Positions 4,247-15,659 of a stretch of DNA of 64,000 nucleotides are shown here, in pieces. The notes beneath the pieces are model-generated. The model saw nothing but the letters and a program-made list of their open reading frames with translations. It did not search any database and was not told the DNA's origin. The stretch spans positions 62,001 to 126,000 of the forward strand of contig NZ_JWIF01000063.1 of assembly GCF_000812685.1 (NCBI RefSeq), given 5' to 3'. Numbering within the stretch: the first letter of the stretch is position 1; each line of letters begins with the position of its first letter. This stretch comes from Halocynthiibacter namhaensis (lineage in GTDB: Bacteria > Pseudomonadota > Alphaproteobacteria > Rhodobacterales > Rhodobacteraceae). The position numbers were made by a program, and so were the translations under genes.

Positions 4247-4906
4247 ATGTCGAAATTTGATTTGGTCATATTTGATTGCGATGGGGTGTTGCTTGACAGT
4301 GAATTGATCTCCTGTGGTGTCGATGCGGAAGCCTACTCCAAGGCGGGCTATGCCATGACCACGAACGAGGTTGCGATGCGCTTCGCCGGAGTGCCGGGAG
4401 AAGTCAGTGATGCGATCATTGCACAGGAGATGGGCAAACCGTTACCGGACGGTTTTCGGGCGAATTTGAAGGAGGTTGTCCTTGCGCGATATAGAGACGA
4501 ATTGGAGCCGATCCCTGGGGCAAAGACGCTTTTGTCATCATTGGTTGTCGCGAAATGTGTCGCCTCATCCGCAGCGCCTTCCAAGCTGGCGCTTGGGTTG
4601 ATCCTGACTGAGATGTTTGAACTTGTTTATCCGAATGTGTTTTCTGCTAACCTGGTCTCTAAGGGTAAACCACACCCGGATGTGTTTCTTTACGCTGCGG
4701 AAAAAATGAATGTCCTGCCTTCCCGTTGCGTTGTGATTGAAGACAGTGTCGCGGGGGTTGCCGCTGCGAAAACGGCAGGGATGACCTGTATCGGGTTTAC
4801 GGGCGCGTCCCACTGTTTTGAAGGGCACTCGGACCGTTTGACAAAAGCAGGGGCGGATTTTGTGGTGAACAGAATGGATGCAATACCTGCACTGCTTGAA
4901 GGTTAG
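4247..4906 (+). CDS. HAD-superfamily phosphatase (subfamily IA, beta-PGM/Gph-like)
   Basis: Cytoplasmic HAD hydrolase of 219 residues, in the size range of phosphoglycolate phosphatase or beta-phosphoglucomutase relatives. Motif I is FDCDGVLLDSE with nucleophile D10 and acid/base D12. Motif III lysine is K141 in GKPHPDVF. Motif IV is VIEDSVAGVAAA, with the metal-binding acid pair E165-D166. The alpha-helical cap lies at about residues 18-85. It stands alone between two terminators, so the context gives no substrate. A sugar-phosphate or phosphoglycolate phosphatase is the most likely activity. Confidence 0.85.
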   Translation: MSKFDLVIFDCDGVLLDSELISCGVDAEAYSKAGYAMTTNEVAMRFAGVPGEVSDAIIAQEMGKPLPDGFRANLKEVVLARYRDELEPIPGAKTLLSSLVVAKCVASSAAPSKLALGLILTEMFELVYPNVFSANLVSKGKPHPDVFLYAAEKMNVLPSRCVVIEDSVAGVAAAKTAGMTCIGFTGASHCFEGHSDRLTKAGADFVVNRMDAIPALLEG

Positions 4907-4929
4907 TTCGCGATACCGATCGGCCAAAC

Positions 4930-4960
4930 AAAAGCCCCGCAGCAGTGCTACGGGGCTTTT
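4930..4960. terminator. bidirectional terminator between HAD gene and helicase gene
   Basis: AAAAGCCCCG (4930-4939) and CGGGGCTTTT (4951-4960) form a perfect 10-bp stem. It lies between two convergent genes, with A and T tracts suited to both strands. Confidence 0.85.
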
Positions 4961-13079: not shown

Positions 13080-13433
13080 TCACTTCACTGCGCTAATCAA
13101 TTTGCGTTCCAGCACACGCAACACTTGTTTCAGATCATGCCCGCGCCGTAGAATTTTCCCATCCATGCCGACAACGCAGTATTGACCTTGCTGCAACCGC
13201 AGTTTGGGGCGTTTTTCGATCCGATACATTGGGACTTCTGCAGCGCGCCGGTATACTGAAAACACGGCCAAATCGCGCAGCATTGAAATGCCATAATCGC
13301 GCCATTCACCAGCCGCGACCATCTGACCATATAGCGACAAAATGATGGCCAGCTCGGTGCGATGAAAGCAGACCTGCTGCTGGGGGCGTGCTGATTGAGG
13401 GCCTGACAGCGATGACAAAGTGGGTGTGTGCAT
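13080..13433 (-). CDS. DUF2794 family protein
   Basis: 117-residue protein of a family widespread in alphaproteobacteria, with no known function. The family core is plain: VCFHRTELAIILSLYGQMV, GEWRDYGISMLRD, AVFSVYRRAAEVPMYRIEKR and a final GHDLKQVLRVLERKL. No membrane segment or signal peptide. It is convergent with the NlpC/P60 gene, the stop codons being adjacent (13077-13079 and 13080-13082), with no terminator between them. The 196 nt upstream hold an inverted repeat at 13561-13608 and no gene. Confidence 0.88.
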   Translation of the reverse strand: MHTPTLSSLSGPQSARPQQQVCFHRTELAIILSLYGQMVAAGEWRDYGISMLRDLAVFSVYRRAAEVPMYRIEKRPKLRLQQGQYCVVGMDGKILRRGHDLKQVLRVLERKLISAVK

Positions 13434-13629: not shown

Positions 13630-14253
13630 TCAGTGGCGCAAGCCATAGCGGGCCAAAAAGGTATCAACGGTTCCGGTGACGACCTTTTTGATATCGGCTT
13701 CTGTTGGGGAGTCTTCCATTTGCAAACAACACTTTACCCATAGATCTGCTTTGCATAGGGCCGCGAATTGTTCTGCCGCGAATTCCAGGTCGTCGATCTT
13801 TAATTCGCCTCGTTCGATCTGGGCTTCGAACAATTCGATCAAATAGGCTTTCCCCATTTCAGGGCCCATCTTGTAGAATTTATGCGCCAATTCAGGGAAG
13901 CGTTTCGCTTCGCCGTGAATGAGGTTGTGCATAGAGAGAGCCAGCGGGGAAACAATGAAGCGCACAAAGATAGTCGCAGCCGAGGTCAAGGCCTCGCGCG
14001 CCGGGGCTTGCTTGAGGTTTCCGCAAAAAGCTGCATTGGCTTGTTCTTGGCACTTGATGCGCATAATTTCCAAGAATAACATACGTTTATCTGGAAAGTA
14101 GCTGTACAAAGTAGCCTTGGAAACACCGGCCTCTCGGGCGATTTCGTCTACGCTTGCACCGTCAAAGCCATCTCGCATAAACACGACTTGGGCGCCATTG
14201 AGTACATCGTCGTACTTACGGCCTTTGCGTGATGTTGCGGTGGTCTCTGGCAT
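13630..14253 (-). CDS. TetR/AcrR family transcriptional repressor (AefR-like C-terminal domain)
   Basis: 207 residues. The N-terminal winged helix-turn-helix is at about residues 25-65 (VDEIAREAGVSKATLYSYF, then PDKRMLFLEI). The remaining 140 residues are the ligand-binding helical domain, resembling the TetR_C_7/AefR type, with an internal HNLIHGEAKRFPELAHKFY segment. A 16-bp near-palindrome 36 nt upstream of its start (14289-14304) is repeated twice before the next minus-strand gene at 14384. It therefore probably represses itself and that gene. The ligand is unknown. Confidence 0.9.
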   Translation of the reverse strand: MPETTATSRKGRKYDDVLNGAQVVFMRDGFDGASVDEIAREAGVSKATLYSYFPDKRMLFLEIMRIKCQEQANAAFCGNLKQAPAREALTSAATIFVRFIVSPLALSMHNLIHGEAKRFPELAHKFYKMGPEMGKAYLIELFEAQIERGELKIDDLEFAAEQFAALCKADLWVKCCLQMEDSPTEADIKKVVTGTVDTFLARYGLRH

Positions 14254-14288
14254 GGTTTCTCCGGCTGAGAGCGCGTTGTGCGACAGTA

Positions 14289-14304
14289 TAAACCGAACAG
14301 TTCA
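14289..14304. promoter_or_regulatory. putative TetR operator 1 (own promoter)
   Basis: TAAACCGAACAGTTCA. Its reverse complement fits a shared pattern T[AG]AAC[CT]GTT[CT]nGTT[CT]A, also found at 14559-14574 and 14582-14597. It lies 36-51 nt before the TetR start codon. Assignment is by motif recurrence beside a TetR gene. Confidence 0.5.
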
Positions 14305-14383
14305 CTTTCAACAACCTATCATAATGGGAAAAAAGGCGGCAAGGTTGCCCCCGCCGCCAGGTTCCTCAGGGATGAACTGGGGG

Positions 14384-14536
14384 TTACTCTTCTGGGCCAG
14401 GCTCTGCGGGTTCAGCATCTGTTGGCCAAGTTAGGGTAGGGAACCAGGTGCCTCCAATGCCGCCTGCATTTGCGGTGGCAGGAATGGCAAGGGTCGCAAC
14501 AAGTGCGAGTGTCAGTGCTGTGCGGATGAACGTCAT
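14384..14536 (-). CDS. small exported protein, 50 residues
   Basis: A 50-codon gene too short for routine gene finding. It starts at 14536 with AAGGAAG 6-12 nt upstream. The product begins MTFIRTALTLALVATLAIPA and continues TANAGGIGG. This is a textbook Sec signal peptide with an ANA cleavage site after residue 24, leaving a mature peptide of only about 26 residues, ending WFPTLTWPTDAEPAEPGPEE. It is acidic, and rich in proline and glutamate. Two operator-like palindromes overlap its promoter region, so it is probably controlled by the TetR protein encoded 130 nt downstream in the same direction. No function is recognised. Confidence 0.65.
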   Translation of the reverse strand: MTFIRTALTLALVATLAIPATANAGGIGGTWFPTLTWPTDAEPAEPGPEE

Positions 14537-14550
14537 TTTGATGCTTCCTT

Positions 14551-14577
14551 TGGTGAACTAAACTGTTTCGTTCACCA
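14551..14577. promoter_or_regulatory. putative TetR operator 2
   Basis: A 27-bp near-perfect palindrome: left arm TGGTGAACTAAAC, one central base, right arm GTTTCGTTCACCA, matching at 12 of 13 positions. It contains the shared 16-mer TAAACTGTTTCGTTCA (14559-14574). It covers the region just upstream of the ribosome-binding site of the small exported protein. Confidence 0.55.
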
Positions 14578-14578
14578 T

Positions 14579-14600
14579 ATCTAAACCGTTTAGTTTAGAT
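14579..14600. promoter_or_regulatory. putative TetR operator 3, within the promoter of the small exported protein
   Basis: ATCTAAAC (14579-14586) and GTTTAGAT (14593-14600) flank a short centre and contain the shared 16-mer TAAACCGTTTAGTTTA (14582-14597). On the minus strand a -35-like TTGATA (14605-14600) lies immediately upstream, and a weak -10-like TAGATA/AGATAT sequence overlaps its other end. A repressor bound here would block the promoter spacer. Confidence 0.5.
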
Positions 14601-14654
14601 ATCAAGGGCGGCAAGTAAAAAAACAGTATTTGTTTTCTTCAGAGATTGGGTTAC

Positions 14655-14669
14655 TTAGAATCATTCTAA
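14655..14669. promoter_or_regulatory. iron control element (Irr-type box) of mbfA
   Basis: A perfect palindrome TTAGAATCATTCTAA directly before the mbfA ribosome-binding site and 12 nt before its ATG. It matches the alphaproteobacterial iron-control-element pattern TTAGAAnnnTTCTAA recognised by Irr. Irr represses mbfA under iron limitation in rhizobia; the same logic fits here, though no irr gene is in view. Confidence 0.75.
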
Positions 14670-14681
14670 AAAGGATAAGCC

Positions 14682-15659
14682 ATGTTTCCCGGGATGACCT
14701 ACCGCCGTCAGTTTGCTGATCTCACAGAGCAAGAAATTCTAGCGCTTGCGATTTCTTCGGAAGAAGATGATGCGCGAATATATAGGACTTATGCGCAGCG
14801 CCTGCGTGCAGACTTCCCAGCTTCGGCGGACATGTTTGAAGAAATGGCATGTGAGGAGGATGATCATCACAGAGCGTTGATTGCGTCGCATCAAAAGCGT
14901 TTCGGTGATGTTATCCCTTTGATCCGACGTGAGCATGTTTCAGGGTTTTACGCGCGCCATCCCATTTGGCTGATTGAAAACCTTGGCTTAGATCGGATGC
15001 GTGCGGAAGCCGCCAAAATGGAACATGACGCCGCCAATTTCTACACCAAGGCCGCACAGCACAGCAGTGATGCCTCGACCCGTCAGCTGTTGTCGGACTT
15101 GGCTGCCGCCGAGGCAGGGCATGAAGCGCGCGCAAACGCTTTGCAACATCAGCATCTATCTGGTTCGGCTTCGGAGGAAGAATCGCGTACCGCCCATCGA
15201 CAGTTCGTTCTCACGTGGGTGCAACCTGGCCTTGCGGGGCTAATGGATGGTTCGGTTTCCACTTTGGCCCCGATTTTTGCGGTGGCCTTTGCGACGGGTG
15301 ACACATGGACGACTTTTCTTGTTGGCCTTGCGGCTTCGGTTGGAGCGGGAATTTCAATGGGCTTCACCGAAGCTGCGTCAGACGACGGTGAATTGTCGGG
15401 CCGGGGTTCGCCCATCAAGCGTGGTTTCGCTTCCGGGATTATGACAACCGTTGGGGGGCTTGGCCACGCATTGCCTTATCTGATTGCTGATTTTTGGACC
15501 GCGACAAGTATTGCCATTTTGGTTGTGTTCATTGAGCTTTGGGCGATTGCATGGATCCAAAACAAATTCATGCAAACGCCGTTCTGGCGTGCGGCATTTC
15601 AGGTGGTGTTGGGCGGGGCCTTGGTATTTGCAGCTGGGGTGCTCATTGGAGGTGGCTAA
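14682..15659 (+). CDS. mbfA: membrane-bound ferritin-like iron exporter (MbfA)
   Basis: 325 residues with two parts. The N-terminal ferritin/rubrerythrin-like domain (about 15-160) has di-iron ligand candidates E27/E28, E58/E59 with H62/H63, E114 in MEHDAANFY, and E144 with H147. The C-terminal part (about 175-325) is a VIT1/CCC1-type transport domain: WVQPGLAGLMDGSVSTLAP, then GISMGFTEA and three further helices. This fusion is the MbfA family, which exports excess Fe2+ and protects against iron and peroxide stress in rhizobia and Agrobacterium. AAGGA precedes the start. The adjoining Irr-type box supports the iron assignment. Confidence 0.9.
   Translation: MFPGMTYRRQFADLTEQEILALAISSEEDDARIYRTYAQRLRADFPASADMFEEMACEEDDHHRALIASHQKRFGDVIPLIRREHVSGFYARHPIWLIENLGLDRMRAEAAKMEHDAANFYTKAAQHSSDASTRQLLSDLAAAEAGHEARANALQHQHLSGSASEEESRTAHRQFVLTWVQPGLAGLMDGSVSTLAPIFAVAFATGDTWTTFLVGLAASVGAGISMGFTEAASDDGELSGRGSPIKRGFASGIMTTVGGLGHALPYLIADFWTATSIAILVVFIELWAIAWIQNKFMQTPFWRAAFQVVLGGALVFAAGVLIGGG

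Follow-up and report, generated by a model that had tools for sequence, protein, structure and literature searches.

An exported-looking micropeptide and an RND pump share an operator in a probable TetR-controlled efflux regulon

The 64-kb stretch of DNA analysed here (the window) carries a tetR gene and, upstream of it, a gene of 50 codons for a small exported-looking peptide. Both are preceded by palindromic operators of a type also found before an RND pump operon on another contig of the same genome. The arrangement is, on balance, probably a xenobiotic-triggered efflux regulon, in which TetR would silence tetR itself, the RND operon and an exported peptide acting in the envelope alongside the pump. 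The reality of the peptide gene, its signal-like N-terminus, the operators and the membership of the regulon are well supported by sequence comparison; DNA binding by TetR, the direction of control and the TetR ligand are what we infer. The features of the tetR/peptide locus are as follows.

13630 to 14253, minus strand: tetR, TetR/AcrR repressor of 207 aa with PF00440 and PF14246 (AefR-like C-terminal domain), from domain and structure searches
14289 to 14304, minus strand: operator before tetR, TGAACTGTTCGGTTTA, 0 mismatches
14329 to 14358, minus strand: intrinsic-terminator-like hairpin and T run downstream of the peptide gene, from a terminator scan (2 in the region against a shuffled mean of 0.6)
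14384 to 14536, minus strand: gene for a small exported-looking peptide of 50 aa, ATG start, core WFPTLTWP, from the frame, selection and the family profile
14544 to 14551, minus strand: ribosome-binding-site-like AAAGGAAG, from sequence
14554 to 14574, minus strand: promoter-proximal operator of the peptide gene, the 16-bp site 14559-14574 lying within the 21-bp near-palindrome TGAACTAAACTGTTTCGTTCA, from sequence
14577 to 14605, minus strand: putative peptide promoter with -35 TTGATA at 14600-14605, operator 14582-14597 in the spacer and a weak -10, from TTG offset statistics
14582 to 14597, minus strand: second operator of the peptide gene, TAAACTAAACGGTTTA, 0 mismatches

The product of frame 14384-14536 is MTFIRTALTLALVATLAIPATANAGGIGGTWFPTLTWPTDAEPAEPGPEE. 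As the sequence-only reading had proposed, the tiny gene has a ribosome site (AAAGGAAG upstream) and, by eye, an N-terminus resembling a Sec-type signal peptide. The signal sequence extends to about residue 24, and the mature product of ~26 aa would be acidic and proline-rich, again in agreement with that reading, assuming cleavage after A-N-A (read by eye). Two genomes of the same genus keep the peptide with 70% identity over residues 1-46. In a single-sequence search these two congeners were matched at E 2.6e-14 and everything else at E 0.07 or worse; such a search reaches the genus alone, and a family profile is needed to go further. Comparison with one congener over 48 codons gave pS 0.585 and pN 0.188, with synonymous changes only in the WFPTLTWP core. 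Judged by its sequence and by that of its relatives, the 50-codon frame is a real gene. A search of Pfam and NCBIfam with the peptide gave no match up to E 0.1. In the predicted structure a signal helix is followed by an unstructured tail, no secondary structure or fold being predicted for the mature peptide, which in the window copy lacks cysteine. Given the terminator-like hairpin between the peptide gene and tetR, and the operator that tetR has of its own, the two genes are probably transcribed as separate units.

Of 30 loci of the family read upstream of tetR, many showed a small exported-looking frame sharing the core, and a peptide profile was built from 13 sequences. The profile matched 33 of 149 sampled genomes of the family at E < 1e-4; 30 of the 33 matches were opened and read (G046, G122 and G130 were left out), and the match in G122 is the least certain, lying far from its tetR and with no strict operator pattern beside it. 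All 33 peptide genomes fall among the 104 tetR-positive genomes, defined by a match to this TetR at an analyst-chosen threshold of E <= 1e-38 (hypergeometric p 1e-6, kinship ignored), and some two thirds of the tetR-positive genomes (71/104) are without a peptide match at E < 1e-4. At the 30 loci read, tetR is near the peptide in 27 and mbfA, an iron exporter gene, in 23 (both in 20, tetR only in 7, mbfA only in 3). In the three mbfA-only cases tetR lies elsewhere in the genome, and operators still precede the peptide.

A second set comprised 80 named tetR loci, in which the nearest TetR is that of Paenihalocynthiibacter styelae (73%). Under a strict filter the peptide was found at 25 of these loci, after removal of one false hit (L182) whose frame, by eye, lies on the strand opposite a longer gene. 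The relatives share a signal-like N-terminus and a core of the [LF]P-x-L-T-[FW]P type. Among 52 relatives (the window's own copy is left out, and at least two pairs, L177/L183 and L237/L241, are very similar), two cysteines occur in 38, none in 14 and an odd number never, as would be expected of an oxidised periplasmic loop. The core motif is present in 51 of the 52, partly by construction, the motif having been a search criterion in the named set and in the profile seed; operators and cysteine counts were not selection criteria. The conservation of the small frame and its signal in relatives, on which the sequence-only reading had made its proposal depend, is apparent from the family profile and from pN/pS. 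That reading had also called the peptide unannotated, which does not extend to its relatives, one of them being already annotated as 'hypothetical protein' (WP_085996628.1, Cereibacter azotoformans). In C. azotoformans both tetR and the peptide gene are plasmid-borne. Two loci depart from the common layout. Roseivivax jejudonensis (L193) has two non-identical copies of the exported peptide, one after the other, ahead of tetR (4395-4556 and 4767-4931), and in G017 (L069) the operators upstream of tetR are followed by a 68-residue exported-looking frame with two cysteines and no LTFP core, so that the peptide slot may there be filled by an unrelated small exported protein.

Exact matches to T[AG]AAC[CT]GTT[CT]nGTT[CT]A, with 0 mismatches, lie at 14289-14304, 14559-14574 and 14582-14597 and nowhere else in the 64 kb. 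The three 16-bp near-palindromes are thus present where the sequence-only reading had placed them, and they exceed chance by shuffles: with up to 2 mismatches the window holds 5 operator matches (both strands and overlaps counted) against a shuffled mean of 0.94, and none of 100 window shuffles reached 5. With the slightly looser pattern TRAACNGTTYNGTTYA, the 3.5-Mb genome yields 5 exact matches, 3 of them at the tetR/peptide locus. An exact match at C59:37299, inside a frame resembling by eye a cytochrome c biogenesis gene, was treated as chance. Family-wide, the operator is better written as the palindrome T[AG]AAC-N6-GTT[CT]A. The two congeners have counterparts of the three operators, in some cases with one mismatch: 14582-14597 is exact in both, and both keep 14559-14574 with one mismatch to the 16-bp pattern. 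Exact T[AG]AAC-N6-GTT[CT]A sites occur within 700 bp upstream of tetR at 65 of the 80 named tetR loci, often at around -41 to -75 relative to the matched start, and the operators beside orthologous tetR genes are in this sense conserved, as the sequence-only reading had required.

The upstream regions of 53 peptide genes together hold 106 exact palindromes, against 0.045 in total in shuffles. At least one exact operator is present in 51 of the 53, at least two in 42 and three in 13, and by eye they fall into groups at about -90, -57 and -31 relative to the start codon. The shuffles, the genome-wide count and these 53 regions rule out chance as the source of the operators. A TTG stands 8-9 bp before an operator (with up to 1 mismatch) in 38/53 regions, versus at most 9/53 at the other offsets tested, as if that operator filled the spacer between -35 and -10; a consensus scan for a sigma-70 promoter at the peptide gene found none. 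By operator count, the peptide promoter ranks first among the three, mostly with two or three operators, against usually one at tetR and one at the pump.

The TetR protein scored 118.6 bits with TetR_C_7 (cut-off 22) and 58.1 bits with TetR_N (cut-off 24), and its AlphaFold model has a mean pLDDT of 86.4. The closest structures to the model, at 26-33% identity, are MexL, a Mesorhizobium TetR, FrrA (with and without flavonoids) and NalC, and the sequence profile agrees, being led by the same four proteins (NalC 8ke8, E 3.6e-27). Relatives of this TetR in other families of the class are, by eye, mostly divergent from drug-pump adaptor genes of EmrA or RND type, and 10 of the 16 opened outside the family have an exact operator no more than 1500 bp upstream. 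Because these outside relatives face drug-pump adaptors and carry operators, efflux control was probably the ancestral job of TetR. By analogy with FrrA, for which flavonoid structures are available, and with NalC (excerpts of PMC3290565), the inducer is likely to be a toxic aromatic compound.

An operator of the same type precedes an RND operon of this genome.

Contig C8, 6004 to 6019: operator before the RND operon, an exact match 229 bp before the adaptor
Contig C8, 6233 to 7363: RND adaptor, from a family match
Contig C8, 7360 to 11217: RND permease, from a family match

No tetR was seen among the frames of at least 140 aa on the 11.9-kb RND contig, and the genome holds a single match to TetR at E <= 1e-20. 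In a first scan of adaptor upstream regions from 90 genomes, the exact operator was found in 55 of 70 tetR-positive and 2 of 20 tetR-negative genomes; the reversed pattern gave 0/90, and regions upstream of paralogous adaptors gave 2/20. The first scan missed sites where adaptor frames were longer. An upstream extension covering 9 of the 15 tetR-positive misses (8 gained a site) and 11 of the 18 tetR-negative misses (0 gained) raised the count to 63 of 70 tetR-positive genomes and left it at 2 of 20 tetR-negative ones, the 8 added sites standing 6-101 bp upstream of an ATG that is in frame with the adaptor. The exceptions are 7 tetR-positive genomes without a site in the scanned stretch and the 2 tetR-negative genomes with one.

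These genomes are not independent: among the first 30, a clade of six adaptors is without a site, and five of the six come from tetR-negative genomes. The best tree of the 90 adaptors yielded 15 independent pairs differing in tetR, and the site was lost with tetR in 10-11 and the opposite was seen in 0-1 (sign test, median p 0.001, maximum 0.012), many branches of this tree being weakly supported; restriction to supported branches leaves 2 pairs, from which no conclusion is possible. Taken with the operator itself, the scans strongly suggest that TetR controls the RND operon through a shared operator. The sequence-only reading had described a repressor 'dedicated' to itself and one peptide. 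That description is not supported, since the operator also marks an RND pump, here and in most of the tetR-bearing relatives examined; it may be nearly true in the few genomes where tetR and the peptide are kept and the pump is missing (8 of the 33 peptide genomes).

A blind scan of 10 genomes with the pattern TRAACYRNNYRGTTYA returned 32 sites, and the reversed control 7. Eighteen loci were opened: the site is followed by the RND adaptor in 8 of them and by the peptide or tetR in 5, and the other 5 show neither pump, peptide nor tetR. One of these last five, in a genome of another genus (G159, L332), has a perfect palindrome, TGAACTGATCAGTTCA, flanked by an MFS-type transporter frame and a carboxylase-like frame in divergent orientation, and represents another possible target. 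In the genome of the window, at G000:C27:66277-66292 (L128), an operator-like palindrome with an atypical core, TAAACGATCCAGTTTA, lies 58 bp before an MFS-transporter-like frame, a possible further member of the regulon.

The xenobiotic-triggered regulon proposed here would work in the following way. TetR would be a xenobiotic-sensing repressor of the efflux-pump clade (MexL/FrrA/NalC-like) that, with no inducer present, would occupy T[AG]AAC-N6-GTT[CT]A palindromes and silence three transcription units, namely tetR (one site), the RND adaptor-permease operon (one site) and the peptide gene (two sites here, up to three in relatives). On entry, a small toxic and probably aromatic molecule would bind TetR as inducer and free all three units, and the pump would then expel it. 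After export by Sec, the peptide would be processed to a length of some 19-43 residues, probably closed into a disulphide loop in most relatives (the window peptide has no cysteine for one), and would act in the envelope in parallel with the pump. As to its effect there, we can only guess that it may protect or tighten the outer membrane.

A more specific version, which we hold only tentatively, is that such peptides form a new class of inducible envelope effector: an acidic, proline-rich peptide of 20-40 residues with an exposed [LF]PxLT[FW]P core, mostly looped by a disulphide, which an efflux repressor would free into the periplasm, where it would bind an outer-membrane target and, for example, block a porin. 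In pump-less genomes the peptide would then be the whole response, and TetR would have been kept for it. If this were true, the peptide would lower the entry of a poison while the pump raises its exit.

A different role, doubtful but still to be weighed, is that of an accessory of the RND pump, in the manner of AcrZ on AcrB: the peptide would be co-induced with the pump, bind its adaptor or permease in the periplasm and tune its substrates or stability. The operator does stand at the pump in 19 of the 20 peptide genomes whose pump upstream region was examined, so that peptide and pump bear the same operator, and co-induced efflux helpers are known, namely AcrZ (excerpts of PMC11554990) and DjlA with TipR (excerpts of PMC10754441). 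However, 8 of the 33 peptide genomes are without a pump orthologue, five having no permease match at E 1e-50 and three a distant match at 43-45%, which argues that the peptide is no obligate part of the pump. With the strict pattern, operators in these pump-less genomes occur at the peptide locus only in G069, G139, G012 and G046 and once elsewhere in G122 and G064, and are absent in G024 and G129. Among tetR-positive genomes, moreover, the peptide is commoner where the pump is absent (8/11 versus 25/93, p 0.004, kinship ignored; tallied by hand, with G011, G014 and G052 not rechecked and with G024 and G046 incomplete at 85 and 86%). The presence of the peptide in pump-less genomes and its higher frequency there favour a parallel role in the envelope over that of a pump subunit.

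The gene on the other side of the peptide operators is another candidate partner.

14655 to 14669, no strand assigned: palindrome TTAGAATCATTCTAA before mbfA, an Irr/ICE-like box, with box identity inferred from sequence
14682 to 15659, plus strand: mbfA, iron exporter, divergent syntenic neighbour (NCBIfam FeExpMbfA, 555 bits against a cut-off of 450)

The neighbouring iron exporter noted in the sequence-only reading is confirmed as MbfA by the NCBIfam family FeExpMbfA. If the peptide belonged with MbfA in iron or oxidative envelope stress, TetR would also control mbfA from the shared intergenic region, and mbfA does lie beside the peptide in 23 of the 30 loci, including the 3 with tetR elsewhere. 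This explanation is nevertheless improbable: seven of the 30 loci have tetR near and no mbfA, a drug pump is the other conserved target, mbfA carries an Irr-type box of its own, and relatives of TetR outside the family mostly face drug-pump adaptors. According to excerpts of PMC3413700, Irr binds the mbfA promoter in Rhodobacter sphaeroides. MbfA seems to be a neighbour served by a separate Irr-type box, and it does not look like the clue to what the peptide does. The Irr-type palindrome at 14655-14669 shares its intergenic region with the TetR operators.

The sequence-only reading had suggested either a stress-induced envelope peptide or a signal. Of the two, the stress-induced envelope peptide is the better class of explanation; signalling found no support. 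A secreted signal, possibly the ligand of TetR itself, would suit a small exported-looking peptide encoded beside a one-component regulator. It is very unlikely, as TetR occurs widely without the peptide (57 of 289 genomes of the class at E <= 1e-30, against confident peptide copies in 2), FrrA, among the nearest solved relatives, was crystallised with flavonoids, and the peptide sequence varies strongly between genera. Both class-wide peptide copies (G000 and G401) belong to this family, to which 4 of the 289 genomes are assigned by label; other class-wide profile matches, chiefly to the signal part of longer frames, were not counted. That the frame is an accident within a regulatory leader, as its shortness and lack of a Pfam or NCBIfam match would allow, is scarcely credible given purifying selection, the synonymous changes in the core and the conservation of signal, core and paired cysteines in dozens of genera.

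FrrA (Bradyrhizobium) and MexL (Pseudomonas) are among the closest structures to the predicted TetR fold, and MexL is an efflux repressor. We know of no exported peptide in the FrrA or MexL regulons. In excerpts of PMC4070704, the FrrA gene adjoins a pump operon. The nearest formal likeness is to NalC, PA3720-ArmR and MexR of Pseudomonas aeruginosa, in which a related TetR repressor likewise stands over a peptide of ~50 residues encoded behind its operators; according to excerpts of PMC3290565 and PMC6018408, NalC silences the gene encoding a peptide of 53 residues and in this way influences an RND pump. However, ArmR binds MexR in the cytoplasm, a mode of action that would be closed to an exported peptide, whereas the family of the window peptide has a conserved export signal (by rule and by eye). 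In the present system, moreover, the TetR operator lies on the RND pump itself.

AcrZ with AcrAB-TolC provides a small protein that shares its regulation with an RND pump (excerpts of PMC11554990), as here the same operator precedes both. AcrZ, however, is a partner of AcrB activated by MarA/SoxS/Rob, whereas the window peptide has a cleavable-looking signal and stands under TetR, and its family also occurs in pump-less genomes (8/33). In Caulobacter, an alphaproteobacterial repressor, TipR, controls itself, the RND pump AcrAB-NodT and a separate helper gene, djlA (excerpts of PMC10754441). The helper in that account is a DnaJ-like co-chaperone, whereas here it is a peptide, and tipR is divergent from its pump, which here lies on another contig; the likeness is one of regulon layout, not of sequence orthology. 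By these analogies, the present system would work most like the TipR regulon while formally resembling NalC-ArmR.

A literature search, with most subscription journals outside its scope, found no efflux regulon releasing an exported micropeptide alongside its pump, and no description of the peptide family was found in the literature searched. Efflux repressors are well known; the exported micropeptide that would be released together with the pump is the element not met in that literature. What began as an anonymous small frame is now one member of a conserved family, for which a likely regulator, the layout of the promoter, a co-regulated pump and a motif open to testing can be named. The system is a concrete example in which to ask how bacteria couple drug export to envelope changes, and the bacterial family concerned includes the roseobacters, which are abundant in the sea.

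A DUF2794 gene lies near tetR in the window (13080-13433, minus strand), and the related tetR of Ruegeria sp. TM1040 (L406) likewise has a DUF2794 gene downstream, together with NlpC/P60 and aminopeptidase genes. The sequence TGAACCCATTTGTTCA, with 22 exact copies in the genome, fits the loose palindrome but not the operator core and was set aside. Its copies often lie within a few hundred bases of contig starts (e.g. L124-L127, L129-L133 and L135-L137), and it probably belongs to a mobile element whose repeats interrupt the assembly.
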